In this document: in pieces, positions 32,297 to 42,603 of the stretch
How positions within the stretch are numbered: the first letter of the stretch is position 1
Layout of the letters: every line of letters starts with the position of its first letter
NCBI GenBank assembly: GCA_017448965.1
Contig: JAFSKK010000011.1
Location: 16,204 to 80,203, forward strand
Reading direction: 5' to 3'
Source of the DNA: Bacteroidaceae bacterium
Lineage (GTDB): Bacteria; Bacteroidota; Bacteroidia; Bacteroidales; Bacteroidaceae
Length of the DNA: 64,000 nt
Notes under the pieces: model-generated
What the model was told of the DNA's origin: nothing
Seen by the model: only the letters and a program-made list of their open reading frames with translations
Database searches by the model: none
Translations under genes and position numbers: made by a program

Positions 32297-33106
32297 CTAC
32301 TTGTATCGGTATTGATTTTCAAATTCTTTCACGATAGCAAGTAATGCTGGTGGCAATGATTGCTTTCCAAAAGTTCTAATATCATTAGGAATGCCAAAAA
32401 GAGCTTCAGCTATTGCCCCAGAAATACAACCAATTGTATCAGAATCTCCTCCAATGCTGATTGCGTTGCGAACGGCATCTTCAAAACTCTTCGCGTCAAG
32501 TGCACATGTAATAGCTTGGGGTACACTTCCTTGACAGGTACCTCCAGATATCATTCCATCCAACCCTTGCCATGAGTATCGAGGACGTATTTCATCTACG
32601 CTCAATGACAAGTCATATCCGAAATCACTTTGAATCCTATCTTTTATCTCAGATGGAGATTTGTCATTACGTGCAAGGAAAATACAAAGAGAGACAGCTT
32701 GCGCACCCTTGATTCCTTCTGGATGATTGTGGGTGCCTTCAGCTGAAATCTTAGCGGCATCCAATGTCGCTTCCTCTGTATCAAACGCCCAACCAACTGG
32801 GCCAACACGCATAGCTGAGCCATTACCGCAACTGTTATATGGTTGCATAACACCACGACGCGAACGATGTACCCACTCCACAAACATTGTACCATAGCTC
32901 CCCATTGGATATGGATAGTCTGTAGCATACTTGAGATAATAATACCCTACGTTTCCACCATGCAACAGCCAATCTGCTGTAGCAATCGTAAGAATACTAT
33001 CGTCAGTATATTCCATTCTTTCATCAAAGAAGGGAAATTCTTTAGATTTGATATTTTCAAACTCATATATTGAGCCAACTATGTCTCCAATAATAGCACC
33101 TAGCAT
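32297..33106 (-). CDS. ADP-ribosylglycohydrolase family protein
   Basis: A 269-aa protein of the DraG/ARH fold, which removes ADP-ribose from proteins, nucleic acids or small molecules. The dinuclear Mg site motifs are visible: GDIVGS near residue 7, YTDDS near 33 and GGDSDTIGCISG near 220. The substrate is unknown. It is the middle gene of a tight three-gene minus-strand operon (15 bp after a small membrane protein, 7 bp before a small soluble protein). Stand-alone DraG-like proteins often act in reversal of ADP-ribosylating toxins or in phage conflict; that role here is inference. Confidence 0.9.
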   Translation of the reverse strand: MLGAIIGDIVGSIYEFENIKSKEFPFFDERMEYTDDSILTIATADWLLHGGNVGYYYLKYATDYPYPMGSYGTMFVEWVHRSRRGVMQPYNSCGNGSAMRVGPVGWAFDTEEATLDAAKISAEGTHNHPEGIKGAQAVSLCIFLARNDKSPSEIKDRIQSDFGYDLSLSVDEIRPRYSWQGLDGMISGGTCQGSVPQAITCALDAKSFEDAVRNAISIGGDSDTIGCISGAIAEALFGIPNDIRTFGKQSLPPALLAIVKEFENQYRYK

Positions 33107-36791: not shown

Positions 36792-38921
36792 TCATTCCAA
36801 TCCATCCAACAAAATGAAGGCTGCCCAATATTTGGGATCGTTCCAACCTTTTTCCTTGTGAGAACGAACCGATTGCTTGGCTGCTTCCAGTGCATCATGT
36901 TTGTTCATCTTCTCTGCGATCCAATTTTTGTAAAATTCTGTCATCAGCAGACAGGTGGCTTCATCGTCCACTTTCCACAACGACATGAGGATGCTCTGGG
37001 CACCTGCCTTCTTGAAACCGCGTTGCAGGCCAAAGACACCTTCGCTGGTGATGTCGCCTTGTGCAGTTTCGCAGGCGCTGAGAGTAGTGAGATCAAGTCC
37101 GCGTAAGTCAAGTGTGGCTATTTCGGCAGCGGTCAGGATTCCGTCTTCGATGCCTTGTGGCAAAGTCATGCCTTGATACTTGTTGTCGGCTCCAGCGAAA
37201 AGGAGTCCACATCGAGACAACACATCGCTTGATGCAGATGATGCAGACGTTGGTGCGCTTTGATAGAAACCATGAGTCGCGACATGAATGAGGCGTTTGA
37301 ATTGTCCGCTTAGATTCTTGAAGGAAGCTTCCGTGCCCTGGTCGGCCAATAGCGCTTCAGCATGCATTTCTTTGTGCGAAGCATTGTTGATGGTCTTCAC
37401 GATGTTTTGTGCTTCGGTTTTGGTGCCAGCCAAATAGGGGATTCCATCGTTGATAGCACCACGGAGATTATAGGCATAACGTGTTTCGCCGCGCTGTTGC
37501 GGATACCGTGTGGCATCTTGTTTCATGCTCTCAATGCTGGTATCGTAGGCCAAACCTCCATACACGACAGCATCTTTACCTTCGACGGGTTCTGTGTTGA
37601 GCGCCAGCCAGCGGGTGGATGAAACGCGGTACATCTTGTAAACTTCTCCAATCAGACGACCGTCGGACAGTTGAAGTGATTCGATGGGCAGTTGGTAAAG
37701 AAGTCCTGATGGAGCAAAATAAATGCGTTGCACATTGCTGCCACCCATCTTGATGATAGGTTGCCAGATTCGTTCGGCCAGATTGCTGGGATTGCTTTCC
37801 AGTTCTTTCTTCTCTATGAGTGGCAAGAAATGCACATGATTCCATTGAGGCGACATGATGAGGGCTGCGTACATAGTGCTGTCCTTGCCCACACGATAGT
37901 CGACGAACTCTATCGCGAGGTCTGTCGCCGTCAGTTTTGCGCGTACATCACCTTGGTGCACTTGCAGGAAATCCATGAATTGATGCAGGCCATTGGCCGA
38001 TTCACCCAGTTCGCGCTCCAAGCGGTCGGCTTCCAATGTGGCGGCATTGGCTTGTGCTGGCGGCGTTTGGGCATCAGAGGCTCTTTTTCGCAATAGGCGG
38101 ATTTTCTTATATTGTGCAGATAGTAGTGAATCATTGTCGATGGTTCGTTGCAAAGCACTTTCAGCAGTGAGGAGAAGACCCTTTGCCAGCAGTTGCTGGT
38201 CGAAGAGCGCATCGGTGAAGTCGCTGTCAAATTCCTGTAACTTATGAGCAAAAGCGTACATGATGGTAGTTGCACCCAAATTCTTGTTCCAATATGCTGT
38301 ACGTTCCGTGGCTGTCAAATAAACAAAGTTGCGTTCCACGTTCTTCTGGATGATGTTGAATATGGCTTTGCGGTCGTTGAGGGCGACAGCCTTCTGGTTC
38401 AGAAATCCTGCTATGTTGGAACGATAGTTATAGGCATCCTGTGTTTCCGAATGGAGCGGACCATAGTAGTCAATGGCCGTTTCCACGCATTTATCGGCCG
38501 CCTGCATGGTCTCATCTTTCTTGTCCAAATAGTAATAAGCTTGTGACAGTTGCATCCATGCAATGGAAAGGTCGTCTTTTGCTGCATCGCCGGCTTGTTG
38601 CAGCAATGCAAGCGCGCGTTGTATATCCGTGACTGTTCTTTCGTATTGCTTCATGTGCGAATACCCATTGGCACGTGCACTATAATATGAAGCCAAATCC
38701 TTGGACGGATACCCTGTCGTTTTCTCGCTGCGGTCAATTAGTTTGGTTAGCGTGTCAATCCCTTCGGAATACTTTTGGTTTTGTATAATATTTTTTACTG
38801 CGCGTTCGTAAGACCTCACATCTGCCTTGTAGGCATTGAGGGCACTCTCATTGAGTTGTGCGGAGGCCATGAGGCTGATAGTGTATGCCACCATTAGCCA
38901 TGCAAATCGTTTTTTCGTCAT
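36792..38921 (-). CDS. exported TPR-CHAT (caspase-like) protease
   Basis: A 709-aa protein: signal peptide (residues 1-21, ending MASAQ), TPR helices over about residues 30-330, and a C-terminal CHAT protease domain (about 420-705). The caspase-clan dyad is visible: His550 in VATHGF and Cys617 in LSACETAQG, followed by the typical SLWKVDDEAT. CHAT proteases act in bacterial conflict systems, as in TPR-CHAT (Csx29) and gasdermin-activating proteases. Here the signal peptide would place it outside the cytoplasm, which is unusual. It is the last gene of the five-gene TIR/RyR operon and lies 1 bp after the TPR gene. Confidence 0.9.
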   Translation of the reverse strand: MTKKRFAWLMVAYTISLMASAQLNESALNAYKADVRSYERAVKNIIQNQKYSEGIDTLTKLIDRSEKTTGYPSKDLASYYSARANGYSHMKQYERTVTDIQRALALLQQAGDAAKDDLSIAWMQLSQAYYYLDKKDETMQAADKCVETAIDYYGPLHSETQDAYNYRSNIAGFLNQKAVALNDRKAIFNIIQKNVERNFVYLTATERTAYWNKNLGATTIMYAFAHKLQEFDSDFTDALFDQQLLAKGLLLTAESALQRTIDNDSLLSAQYKKIRLLRKRASDAQTPPAQANAATLEADRLERELGESANGLHQFMDFLQVHQGDVRAKLTATDLAIEFVDYRVGKDSTMYAALIMSPQWNHVHFLPLIEKKELESNPSNLAERIWQPIIKMGGSNVQRIYFAPSGLLYQLPIESLQLSDGRLIGEVYKMYRVSSTRWLALNTEPVEGKDAVVYGGLAYDTSIESMKQDATRYPQQRGETRYAYNLRGAINDGIPYLAGTKTEAQNIVKTINNASHKEMHAEALLADQGTEASFKNLSGQFKRLIHVATHGFYQSAPTSASSASSDVLSRCGLLFAGADNKYQGMTLPQGIEDGILTAAEIATLDLRGLDLTTLSACETAQGDITSEGVFGLQRGFKKAGAQSILMSLWKVDDEATCLLMTEFYKNWIAEKMNKHDALEAAKQSVRSHKEKGWNDPKYWAAFILLDGLE

Positions 38922-38922
38922 A

Positions 38923-39750
38923 TCAATCGTTATTTTTTAATTCATCAGTTCGTTGTTGCCATAGTGCGGCTTTCTCAGCATCAGGAATGTCGCTTGTGTA
39001 TAGGTTTGTCAGTTTCTGTGCCAATAGCTGTGCGTAGATTTGTGCATCTTTCGTAGGGTCTGCCTTGCAGAGATTATATCCTTTTTCGAGATGGGGTAAT
39101 GCTAGTTGAAACCGCTCGGATTCCATCTCTATGCTCCCCAGCGTGTAGAGTGCCTTACCTTGCAGAAGATTACGCTCTGTATTGCCCTCACATTCGCTCA
39201 CAATCTGCAATAATAACGACTCGGCTTCATCATTTTTCAGAAGAGAATGCAACATGTTGGCTCTTGATGTTTGTTCTCTTAGTCGTTTCTCTGGAGCTTT
39301 TGCCAAGTCGAAATATCGCTCGGCCTCCAGACTTAGTTCAATGGCCTGCTCCAAATCGCCATTTTCCATTCGGATGTTAAGCGACTGTACACTATGCCAT
39401 TGACCCATCCATGAGTAAATCATATAATATGCCTTTCCCTCAGGCTTGGCGTTCGCGAGCGCTTTTTCCAAATGTTCTTTCGCGGTGGGAAAGTCTTTGT
39501 TATCCATCGCATTCACACCCATGTATAGGTAGTTAATGGCTACGAAATTTCTGACGGTGGGAATCAGAGAATCTCTTCCCGTTTCCTTCAGCAGAGTGAT
39601 CGCCTTTTCGTAACACTCGCTCGACTTTGCATACTCCTTCTGTTTGAACAAGGTCTGTGCTTCAGCCATGAGTTCATCATAGCTTCCTGTTTGAGCCTGA
39701 CATCCCAGCGTGGCAAGTATCAGAAATAAAATGGTTAATGTTCTTTTCAT
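38923..39750 (-). CDS. exported TPR-repeat protein
   Basis: A 275-aa protein with a signal peptide (MKRTLTILFLILATLGCQAQ; cleavage after QA-Q, or lipidation at Cys17, whose context is weak) followed by about five TPR-like helical pairs (AQTLFKQKEYAKSSECYEKA is the clearest). TPR proteins are scaffolds; it probably pairs with the TPR part of the CHAT protease, which starts 1 bp downstream. An in-frame start 26 codons upstream overlaps the previous gene and lacks the signal peptide at the N-terminus, so it is rejected. Confidence 0.82.
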   Translation of the reverse strand: MKRTLTILFLILATLGCQAQTGSYDELMAEAQTLFKQKEYAKSSECYEKAITLLKETGRDSLIPTVRNFVAINYLYMGVNAMDNKDFPTAKEHLEKALANAKPEGKAYYMIYSWMGQWHSVQSLNIRMENGDLEQAIELSLEAERYFDLAKAPEKRLREQTSRANMLHSLLKNDEAESLLLQIVSECEGNTERNLLQGKALYTLGSIEMESERFQLALPHLEKGYNLCKADPTKDAQIYAQLLAQKLTNLYTSDIPDAEKAALWQQRTDELKNND

Positions 39751-39766
39751 GATGCAGATGTTTTTT

Positions 39767-40414
39767 TTAATTGCTGATAACCACAACGCTGCAGTCCTTC
39801 TTTCCGCAGTTGATAATTTCCAGTTCAACAGTGTTTCGTTTGTCGGTTGGGAGTTCGAAAGAGGTCTTGCGGTGGGGTTGCCCTTTTTTCACGTCGCGAG
39901 TGTCGTCATAACGTTTGTTGAGCCCTGCGTCATTGGTGACGTGAATGCGCATCGTGACGAGGCCGCCCGCTTCGGCTACGACAGCAAGTTCTTGATGCCC
40001 TTTGGAACCGAAGGTGTATTTGGTGCTTTGACCAGCTTTGACAAAGCAAGTTTTGGTGAGGATGGAACCATTGGGAGTCTGACCACGGTGAATGCCTGAA
40101 CGGCTCAGTTTGTCTGCATCCCGATAGACATCGATGCCTTCTGCAAGACTGTCGGCAAAGGTTTCGTTGAAGACAAGGTGGCCATTGAGGGATGCGACAG
40201 AGTCATCTTGGCAGTTCAAGGTGCTGAAGTCAGCGGTTTGGCAGTTGCGTAGTGCTGCAGCTGACTGTCTGATGGCAGCCGTATCGTTGGTGGCCACGGC
40301 GTCGCGCATGGCAATGCAGGCTTCGAACACAGCCTGAATGTCGCTGTCGCCTTTCTGGGCATAAACAGACAACGTGGTGAGAACTGCAAGGAACGGAAGA
40401 ATCAGTCTTTTCAT
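39767..40414 (-). CDS. exported protein of unknown function in the TIR/CHAT operon
   Basis: A 215-aa protein with signal peptide MKRLILPFLAVLTTLSVYA. The first half is helical (residues 20-70) and the second is a compact beta-rich domain (TKYTFGSKGHQELAVVAEAG ... NCGKKDCSVVVIS) reminiscent of the jelly-roll pre-peptidase modules, by impression only. Four Cys could pair. It sits 61 bp after the TIR-SUMF gene and 16 bp before the TPR gene. No family recognised. Confidence 0.75.
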   Translation of the reverse strand: MKRLILPFLAVLTTLSVYAQKGDSDIQAVFEACIAMRDAVATNDTAAIRQSAAALRNCQTADFSTLNCQDDSVASLNGHLVFNETFADSLAEGIDVYRDADKLSRSGIHRGQTPNGSILTKTCFVKAGQSTKYTFGSKGHQELAVVAEAGGLVTMRIHVTNDAGLNKRYDDTRDVKKGQPHRKTSFELPTDKRNTVELEIINCGKKDCSVVVISN

Positions 40415-40475
40415 GTTGCCGAGATTTTACGGTTATACAGTTACGGGGTTTTGATAGCGTGTGAATAGAGATTGC

Positions 40476-41780
40476 TTAGGGCTGGGCTTTGCGGATGACG
40501 AGGCGAAAACCGACCGTCTTTTCTTTGGCATCCGTGTTGAGACCTGCACGTGAAGAAATGGCGACCTCTTCAACAGGCGAATTATAGTGTCCGCCGCAGA
40601 CGGTCCATTGTGCCCCGTCGGTTGCAGAGATGATGGGCGTATTGCACCATTCGGCCACGTTTCCACTCATGTCGTAGAGGTCAAGCATGTTGGGTGTCTT
40701 ACCCTGTTGTCCATCACAGGGATGTGCGTGTCCGTTGGAGTTGAGGCGATACCATGCTACGGAATCGGCATTGTTGCTGCCAGCGTAAGTGGTCTGTTCT
40801 TGGTGCCATGCTCCATGCGCGGCATATTCCCACTCTTCGACCGAAGGAAGATCAAACTCAAGGTTGGTCATATTGCGCAGGGTGTCAAGGTAGGTCATGT
40901 TGATCTCACCAAAAGACACTTCTGCCATGGGCATGTTTGCTTCAGCCTCGTCATACGTTTCACCCATAATTCCGTGCCACCAACCCACAGTACATTCGAA
41001 CTGGCTCATCCACAGAGTGTCAGGTCTGACAGGCACCATGCGACTGAGCATATTGTCGAGAGTGACCATTTGTTCCATGGTAAGGTTGTTGCTGAGATAG
41101 AGGCCGAAGTCGCTGTATTTCTTTTCCAGTTCTGTGCGCATGGACTCCATCTTTTGTTGTTCGTCAATCCTTTGCCAGAAAAGGTAACAAGTGCCCAGAA
41201 CGATTAGCACGATAGCAATAACGCCAGTCACACTGAGCCATTTCATGAATCTGTTATGGGCATCCTGTTTTCGAAGCGACTCTTGTGCCGTGTCGAAATC
41301 TTCGTCCTTGTGTTCTTGCGAACTGCGTTGTCCAAGTGTAGGAACCAAACGGTTCTTAATCATCAGGTCGATAGTGGCACCAAGCGCCTGTCCGAAACTG
41401 ATTTCCGAATGCTGATGTGAGCCGATGGCATCCTGAAGGTTTTGTGGCATGCCATCAGGAAAACCGTCAAACCCGTTGTCGGGGTTGATCGGGATTATTT
41501 TCTTCTGCTGTTCAAGGGCAAGCGTTATCTCCTGACGTACCCAATCACCCTCATTAGCGCATCGCTGCATAGAGTTTTTAGACAGCACCAGCATGAACAC
41601 AGGGGCTTCCTTGATGGCCGCTTTGATTTTATCGCTGAAGATGCCATCGGTCAGTTCGTCATAGTCGAGAAAAACTCTGTAGCCGCGTTGGATAAGCATC
41701 AGCTGCAGGATGCGGGCATATTGTGCGCCTCCTGTCCTTCGGTAACTGATGAATATATCGTATGGCTGTTGGTCTTTCAT
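40476..41780 (-). CDS. TIR domain - transmembrane helix - SUMF1/FGE-like domain fusion
   Basis: A 434-aa type II-like membrane protein. Residues 6-145 are a TIR domain (YDIFISYRRTGGAQYA) with the NADase-type Glu84 in DWVRQEITLALE, very like the SARM1 active-site strand. Residues 181-202 form one membrane helix. Residues 205-230 are a short coiled stretch, and 250-430 are a formylglycine-generating-enzyme/sulfatase-modifying-factor fold (LPSVEEWEYAAHG, DMSGNVAEWC, TVGFRLVI). The catalytic FGE Cys pair is not evident (a single Cys395 in VCGGHYNS), so this part is probably a binding or sensing domain. Its ATG overlaps the RyR gene stop (ATGA). Predicted topology: TIR in the cytosol, SUMF in the periplasm. 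Confidence 0.92.
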   Translation of the reverse strand: MKDQQPYDIFISYRRTGGAQYARILQLMLIQRGYRVFLDYDELTDGIFSDKIKAAIKEAPVFMLVLSKNSMQRCANEGDWVRQEITLALEQQKKIIPINPDNGFDGFPDGMPQNLQDAIGSHQHSEISFGQALGATIDLMIKNRLVPTLGQRSSQEHKDEDFDTAQESLRKQDAHNRFMKWLSVTGVIAIVLIVLGTCYLFWQRIDEQQKMESMRTELEKKYSDFGLYLSNNLTMEQMVTLDNMLSRMVPVRPDTLWMSQFECTVGWWHGIMGETYDEAEANMPMAEVSFGEINMTYLDTLRNMTNLEFDLPSVEEWEYAAHGAWHQEQTTYAGSNNADSVAWYRLNSNGHAHPCDGQQGKTPNMLDLYDMSGNVAEWCNTPIISATDGAQWTVCGGHYNSPVEEVAISSRAGLNTDAKEKTVGFRLVIRKAQP

Positions 41781-42421
41781 TTCTTCTCGATTTTGTACCC
41801 CATTGCAAGGAGGTATTTGAGGGTGTTGGTTGCCATCAGGCGGTCATATTGTTTTTCGGTTTCGGGCAGTTCCGAGTAGGGCACCATGTCTGGGGTCTGC
41901 ATCTTGTCGTCGTTGCGTTGTAGTCCATAACTCCAGCCTTCGCTTTGACGCTCCAATGCCCACACATTATGTGCATTGGACGCCATCATTTCTCCCAGTT
42001 TTTTCAAGTCGTCTGAAAGTTCTATATGCGACAAGTCGGCTGGGGTGGGGAGATAGGTCTTGCTGTCCACCTTGAATGCTGTGATGCAGTCGCTGCCATC
42101 GGCAATCCATTGTTGCAGGAATGTGGGCAACGGGAATATTTCCGTTTCATCTGCGATAGGGTTGTAGAGCGTGATCTTGTCCGCTGGACGGTTCACCATC
42201 ACAATGACTGTGTAGATGAGTCCGTCGTTCACGGCTCCGAAGAACCTGCCGCTGATGATGGGCATAATCACTCCTCCCTTACCTACAGCCGAGAAGATGG
42301 CTTGTGGATTGAAGTCGTAACGTTTATACACTCGCAAGCCTGCTTCTTCCAGCGTTGTGCCTGCCATTCTCCGTTGTTCCAATGCGAACTTGACGCATTG
42401 TTCGTAATACTGGATGTTCAT
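41777..42421 (-). CDS. RyR-domain protein
   Basis: A 214-aa cytosolic protein. The C-terminal 75 residues match the RyR repeat domain: NAHNVWALERQSEGWSYG, then TPDMVPYSELPETEKQYD and the closing TLKYLLAMGY. Prokaryotic RyR domains occur in nucleotide-centred conflict systems and may bind nucleotide-derived ligands. The N-terminal 130 residues (VIMPIISGRF..., KITLYNPIADETEIFPL, FLQQW) vaguely recall the second half of C39-like papain folds, with no clear catalytic Cys. First gene of the operon; an alternative start 9 codons upstream (42448) is possible, but this ATG opens the first predicted helix. Confidence 0.88.
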   Translation of the reverse strand: MNIQYYEQCVKFALEQRRMAGTTLEEAGLRVYKRYDFNPQAIFSAVGKGGVIMPIISGRFFGAVNDGLIYTVIVMVNRPADKITLYNPIADETEIFPLPTFLQQWIADGSDCITAFKVDSKTYLPTPADLSHIELSDDLKKLGEMMASNAHNVWALERQSEGWSYGLQRNDDKMQTPDMVPYSELPETEKQYDRLMATNTLKYLLAMGYKIEKK

Positions 42422-42503: not shown

Positions 42504-42511
42504 CAAAGGTA
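42504..42511 (-). promoter_or_regulatory. -7 box TACCTTTG of the RyR-TIR-CHAT operon
   Basis: Minus-strand TACCTTTG, 83 bases before the RyR start. It would drive all five genes down to 36792. Confidence 0.68.
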
Positions 42512-42603
42512 CATCTTTTTTCTTATACAACAAAAAAAGGTGTGGATTTTTTGTTGTGTCAGGAAAATATTGTGCATGTGTGTGATGTGTAGAAATAATT
42601 GTG

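Follow-up and report, generated by a model that had tools for sequence, protein, structure and literature searches.

The stretch of DNA analysed here (64,000 nucleotides; hereafter, the window) carries on its minus strand five tightly packed genes, all with ATG starts, in the order RyR, TIR-SUMF, unnamed, TPR and CHAT (Table 1). The RyR and TIR-SUMF genes overlap by 4 bases, and gaps of 61, 16 and 1 bases precede the unnamed, TPR and CHAT genes. The pattern upstream of the first gene is what we take to be the Bacteroidetes promoter consensus. An earlier note on this DNA had described the five genes, their spacing, their strand and the promoter box; the coordinates and the pattern match bear this description out, and the domains that it named (RyR, TIR, FGE-sulfatase, TPR and CHAT) all score above the Pfam curated cut-offs. 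Between the window and the copy in another genome of the family (G127), the dN/dS values of all five genes are 0.04–0.10, which indicates purifying selection. Signal-peptide-like N-termini were recognized by eye on the unnamed, TPR and CHAT proteins, and the membrane orientation given below for the operon products is that predicted from hydropathy and from these N-termini.

Table 1. Coordinates of the operon features in the window and of a membrane protein with a RyR-like tail in a related locus
Feature	Position (strand)	Length (aa)	Description
Promoter	42504..42534 (-)		TTTG-N19-TAccTTTG, pattern match; end lies 82 bases 5' of first ATG
Gene 1, RyR	41777..42421 (-)	214	Degenerate C39-peptidase-like N-terminal half; RyR (residues 123-213)
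Gene 2, TIR-SUMF	40476..41780 (-)	434	TIR (9-101); TM segment (182-200); SUMF/FGE-like ectodomain (274-428)
Gene 3, unnamed exported family	39767..40414 (-)	215
Gene 4, exported TPR protein	38923..39750 (-)	275
Gene 5, exported TPR-CHAT	36792..38921 (-)	709	Caspase-like protease
Membrane RyR-tail protein	L139:4583-6775		Relatives in L066, L074, L078, L083, L118, L122 and L123

The RyR domain of gene 1 (PF02026) was matched by Pfam at 3e-31, with 107.8 bits against a cut-off of 27.4. Its residues H151, W154, T176 and D193 have the spacing (+3, +25, +42) of the pocket of RyDEP, a phage PF02026 protein described in a 2026 preprint, of which we draw on a part (PMC13232231). H75, W78 and D117 of RyDEP correspond to H151, W154 and D193, and T176 occupies the position of H100, which binds phosphate in RyDEP; gene 1 holds three of the four residues of the H-W-H-D ligand set. 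The third position is T in the window, G127, L056 and L065 and H in the other canonical RyR rows of the alignment. Gene 1 further differs from RyDEP in being chromosomal, in lying beside a TIR gene and in its N-terminal half. This half aligns with longer proteins, two of which give weak C39-peptidase matches (the better one has an E value of 9e-5 and, at 23.5 bits, falls just short of the cut-off of 24). A Cys and a His conserved in eight aligned longer forms are, by eye, missing from the window, G127 and L056. The plain label "RyR-domain protein" of the earlier note holds for the C-terminal half and had overlooked the degenerate C39-peptidase-like half.

Gene 2 is matched by TIR_2 (5e-13) and by FGE-sulfatase (2.7e-15), the latter over profile positions 82-254 of 255. 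Four Cys residues lie in this region. The TIR domain contains a candidate catalytic residue, Glu84, whose role in catalysis we assume. Hydropathy gives a single TM segment. Gene 2 is predicted to span the membrane, with a probable sensor outside and a signal-making TIR domain inside. The idea of a hypervariable sensor was rejected, as the dN/dS of TIR-SUMF relative to G127 is 0.10; 20 of the 38 differences from G127 are in residues 151-211, that is, in the linker and membrane segment and not in SUMF. The TIR halves of L075 and L082 are near-identical by eye and are joined to different SUMF halves, which points to an exchangeable sensor part. A broken TIR domain in these two loci, suspected from ATG-only gene calls, was dismissed after stop-free reading gave open frames; no ATG precedes TIR in them, so another start codon is likely. 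In L080, TIR, SUMF and the unnamed domain are fused in a single frame, and because no TM segment is predicted, the SUMF and unnamed parts may be cytoplasmic there. Gene 2 was not accepted as the T9SS component GldK/PorK (38.6 bits against an equivalog cut-off of 350).

The unnamed protein has no Pfam match at E values up to 1, and the best PDB match to its profile has an E value of 0.12. Gene 4 is matched by TPR_2 (5e-12), and gene 5 by CHAT (PF12770; 4e-51, 174.6 bits against a cut-off of 24). Gene 5 contains His550 and Cys617, which we take to be the CHAT catalytic pair; by pattern, the His or Cys motif is missing in some relatives. Most full-length CHAT relatives begin with a signal peptide, as judged by eye. 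The separate TPR and CHAT genes noted before are correct for the window, whereas in several relatives, such as L056, the two form one protein.

We searched 151 genomes of the same family and 45 genomes of the genus; many of those compared were assembled from metagenomes, and that of the window has a completeness of 86%. TIR-SUMF was matched at E values up to 1e-10 in 47 of the 151 genomes, mostly via its SUMF half. The RyR protein was matched in 21 and CHAT in 38. The TIR-SUMF matches are near-complete for the genome of the window and for G127, G113 and G042, to which the genus search added G157, and G112 has a diverged full-length form (29% identical). The unnamed protein was matched in six genomes (E values up to 0.001, one at just 4.6e-4) and is the most specific marker of the module. 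When 84,980 species genomes were scanned for patterns from its alignment, 220 stretches matched and gave 15 loci, 14 of them from Bacteroidales and one labelled only Bacteroidetes. Among 301 family genomes, a profile search found the unnamed protein in nine, including four distant ones that were new and outside the query. These four and the 15 from the pattern scan constitute 19 anchored loci, with the window excluded and with identical loci counted once (L069 = G127, L073 = G113, L075 = G042, L077 = G157 and L083 = G112). Neither 72,556 plasmid records nor a single scan of viral contigs gave a match to the protein.

TIR-SUMF is present in 17 of the 19 anchored loci (absent from L140 and L141) and CHAT in 18 (absent from L074). 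The unnamed gene follows next after TIR-SUMF, or is fused with it, in 16 of the 17 loci that have both; the exception is L079, where a TPR-CHAT gene lies between them. A canonical RyR domain is found in eight loci (L069, L072, L075, L080, L081, L082, L083 on the opposite strand, and L139). Four more (L071, L074, L076 and L078) have a divergent RyR-like tail alone, which gives 12 of 19 when divergent tails are counted in loci that had themselves supplied the two profiles concerned; those tested with Pfam were below the RyR cut-off or gave no score. The other in-house profiles used for locus annotation were likewise built in part from the annotated loci. No RyR-type domain was found in the sequence covered of the remaining seven (L070, L073, L077, L079, L138, L140 and L141), some of which are on short contigs. 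In L139, one of the four loci outside the query, a single strand carries C39-RyR, a RyR-tailed membrane protein, TIR-TM-SUMF, the unnamed gene, TPR-CHAT and a lone RyR gene, interrupted by two short unnamed frames. L056 has the RyR protein closest to that of the window after G127 (70%), and beside it a TIR protein with a carboxypeptidase-regulatory-like domain in place of TIR-SUMF.

The interpretation given in the earlier note is partly borne out. In Bacteroidales the genes do recur as neighbours, but the exact five-gene order was found in the window and G127 alone. Conservation is better for the unit made up of TIR-SUMF, the unnamed protein and TPR-CHAT, which is well supported as one functional module, and RyR is optional. 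In L140 (8950-9621) and L141 (9009-9632), the unnamed protein adjoins CHAT in loci that lack TIR-SUMF; because of this pairing, it may be primarily a partner of CHAT.

RyR was found in two of 198 genomes sampled across the class, one of them the window's own, and because of this rarity its linkage to TIR was tested inside the family only. Among 32 RyR places in the 151 genomes, 11 have a TIR match above the Pfam cut-off at a distance of up to 5 kb and 13 at up to 10 kb, compared with 0.37 and 0.73 expected from random RyR placement per genome, a model that ignores contig ends and relatedness. The counts become 9 and 11 of 30 when the window and G127 are left out (0.34 and 0.69 expected). Including TIR matches below the cut-off, 14 of the 32 places are within 10 kb (0.81 expected; P 2e-15), or 12 of 26 with one place per contig. 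A TIR match is present in 17 of the 21 RyR genomes and in 28 of the 130 others, and seven of the 32 RyR places are within 10 kb of a CHAT match. As a control, we used the type I methylase, which is likewise accessory (135 of 151 genomes): among the matches listed, none was seen by eye on a RyR contig, and seven of the 21 RyR genomes have no listed match. The linkage and the pocket residues support the view that RyR would be tied to TIR signalling in this family, although no TIR gene is close to most of the RyR places. The earlier suggestion that RyR reads the TIR product is made plausible by this linkage and by the preprint, in the part used here, from which the putative ligand is also taken: phage RyR domains bind or cleave 2'/3'cADPR produced by TIR proteins (PMC13232231).

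Eight related proteins of about 730-870 amino acids have a RyR-like tail in which H, W, H and D are invariant at the same spacing (Table 1). In the 151 family genomes, this family was found in eight. Hydropathy predicts two to six membrane segments each in seven of the eight. Profile comparison relates the tails to canonical RyR with 96% probability, and one protein (that of L139) exceeds the Pfam RyR cut-off. A second family of the same layout shows a weak RyR likeness (38%). The proteins are possible ADP-ribose-gated membrane effectors. A TrkA_N-like middle part rests on a single weak match (L066, E 0.0014). A K+ filter of the TVGYG type was discounted: in the first 400 residues of 13 membrane RyR proteins, the sole match is at residue 395 of L122_5, distant from the membrane segments. 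The family is near RyR genes in six of eight places, a count that is partly circular: five of these six had entered the query because they lay beside RyR genes, and of three new places outside the query, one is near a RyR gene. A search for this family alone did not find it in the window's genome.

The operon lies between uvrD and nspC. In the genus, nspC is present in 44 of 45 genomes, and 30 loci were examined. With the window and G127 excluded, uvrD adjoins nspC in 20 of 28, and the apparent gap between them ranges from -1 to 136 bases. Of the eight loci that remain, one ends with its contig; in the other seven, longer stretches 5' of nspC contain different genes but lack uvrD. An accessory insertion at the uvrD-nspC junction is the best reading of the operon, and the 20 empty sites support this accessory status. 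In L131, L132, L135 and L136, from four species, frame lengths alone suggest a different common gene block before nspC, and the junction may be a variable site. The window also encodes an ADP-ribosylglycohydrolase (32300-33106; PF03747, 3e-37) 3.7 kb from the operon, of which no relative was found in the comparison loci. From the flanks of other loci, 86 proteins of 200-1200 amino acids were collected, with end-touching ones and matches to the core profiles excluded. PADLOC matches among them (1e-10) are few (among the best 25 of 45 families, two have two proteins and the rest one), and the best 25 of 92 Pfam families are mostly housekeeping-like. The flanking genes neither favour nor exclude a defence role.

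Several known systems share parts with the operon. As in Thoeris, in the published account as far as it is used here (PMC12847820), a TIR signal maker is encoded next to partner proteins, and type IV Thoeris pairs TIR with a caspase-like protease as its effector, comparable to the TIR and CHAT of the operon. Unlike in Thoeris types I, II and IV, the TIR domain of the operon is on a predicted transmembrane receptor and CHAT is exported. The TIR protein could not be identified as ThsB (PADLOC ThsB models, E 9e-4 at best; NCBIfam ThcB4, 35.2 bits against 220), and none of the five proteins matches ThsA at E values up to 1. On these two features, the operon was not assigned to Thoeris. VMAP, iSTAND and related conflict systems share with the operon a kit of TIR, caspase-like and FGS (SUMF) domains, in which FGS is C-terminal, in the portions of two studies on which we rely (PMC7159879, PMC8195603); the former does not use the word ryanodine in its text, and the latter has it in the reference list only. 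A VMAP ternary system was rejected, with no MoxR or vWA match by Pfam in the five genes and six flanking genes. The literature searched, which excluded most subscription journals, yielded no description of a bacterial TIR-RyR operon.

With moderate confidence, we interpret the operon as a TIR signalling module that is accessory, faces the envelope and is probably protective, and in which RyR would read or erase the TIR product. On the input side would be the SUMF domain, placed outside the inner membrane, with the exported unnamed and TPR-CHAT proteins. The receptor would cluster in response to an event in the periplasm, where CHAT possibly acts by cleavage or by binding, and the clustered cytoplasmic TIR domains would then convert NAD+ into what is probably a cyclic isomer of ADP-ribose. 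In the cytoplasm, the RyR protein would bind or destroy this product and would relay, limit or end the response. This proposal builds on gene order, homology, conserved residues, recurrence, fusions and accessory status, all obtained in the analysis; from them we infer the enzyme activities, the direction of signalling, the ligand, the purpose and any phage protection. The seven anchored loci that lack a RyR-type domain, the four with divergent tails alone, the two lacking TIR-SUMF and the one lacking CHAT count against it, as do the L080 fusion with no predicted TM segment, the T at the H100 position, the CHAT relatives with a motif missing, the mostly housekeeping-like flanks and the RyR places far from a TIR match.

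It is unlikely that unrelated accessory genes have simply gathered in variable islands, so that their neighbourhood is uninformative on joint function. All of the genes are sporadic (the unnamed protein in nine of 301 family genomes), the exact order was seen in two genomes, and for 19 of the 32 RyR places the surrounding 10 kb hold no TIR match above the cut-off, all of which fits such gathering; the recurrent order, the fusions, the purifying selection and the type I methylase control argue otherwise, and for TIR-SUMF, the unnamed protein and CHAT the idea is largely refuted. CHAT as the effector, which once activated would destroy envelope proteins, is also unlikely, if less so. The caspase-like effector of type IV Thoeris and the several CHAT genes in some loci would suit it, but the signal peptide on the window CHAT, read by eye, would put the protease out of direct reach of a TIR product made in the cytoplasm; a CHAT protein that is exported cannot read a signal there.

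Two other readings keep most of the proposed relay and are each possible, though short of probable. In one, the relay responds not to phage but to envelope stress, or to an attack by other bacteria or by host peptides. The sensor parts seem to face the periplasm and known defence proteins are few in the flanks examined, which fits this reading, whereas the bacterial TIR and RyR chemistry is known from phage conflict, as far as the parts of the two sources used here extend (PMC13232231, PMC12847820). In the other, which deserves about the same weight, RyR is an off switch that degrades or soaks up the TIR product, and TIR is an effector that drains NAD+. H151 and D193 match the RyDEP catalytic pair, the phage RyR proteins are erasers or sponges in the same part of the preprint (PMC13232231), and the RyR-tailed membrane family was not found in the window's genome, which is incomplete and was searched for one of the two such families. 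On the other side, six of eight tested homologues bound the signals and those besides RyDEP showed no cleavage in the part of the preprint cited (PMC13232231), and the fusions of RyR with membrane and C39-like proteins that occur in relatives fit a reader.

In animal Toll-like receptors, an ectodomain, a single membrane pass and a cytoplasmic TIR domain are combined with a protease on the outer side. The operon resembles this arrangement in layout only, the ectodomain being unrelated. A rather doubtful extension of the envelope-facing module would make it a bacterial Toll-like pathway, with an exported caspase-like protease upstream of a single-pass receptor, a cyclic ADP-ribose messenger made by TIR, and RyR domains as dedicated readers, including the RyR-tailed membrane proteins of relatives, which could be ion channels. 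If so, the ligand-reading domain of the animal ryanodine-receptor channels would have bacterial relatives that are already at work in TIR signalling. The module as proposed above would itself amount to a TIR pathway whose predicted sensor lies outside the inner membrane, and chromosomal RyR domains would gain a partner and a probable ligand. RyR domains are known from the calcium channels of animals, and the old question of why gut bacteria have them becomes testable in this way.

Two minor observations concern other RyR proteins. A short gene lies directly 5' of long C39-like/RyR proteins in L060, L062, L065, L066, L067, L075 and L081. Its product is above the Pfam sigma-70 region 4 cut-off in L067 and close to it in L060, with no match in the others tested, and it is a possible transcription switch read by RyR. 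Two unannotated phage contigs from human faeces, MT836850.1 and MT837259.1, encode RyR domains that share 45-51% identity with that of the window and are possible anti-TIR proteins.
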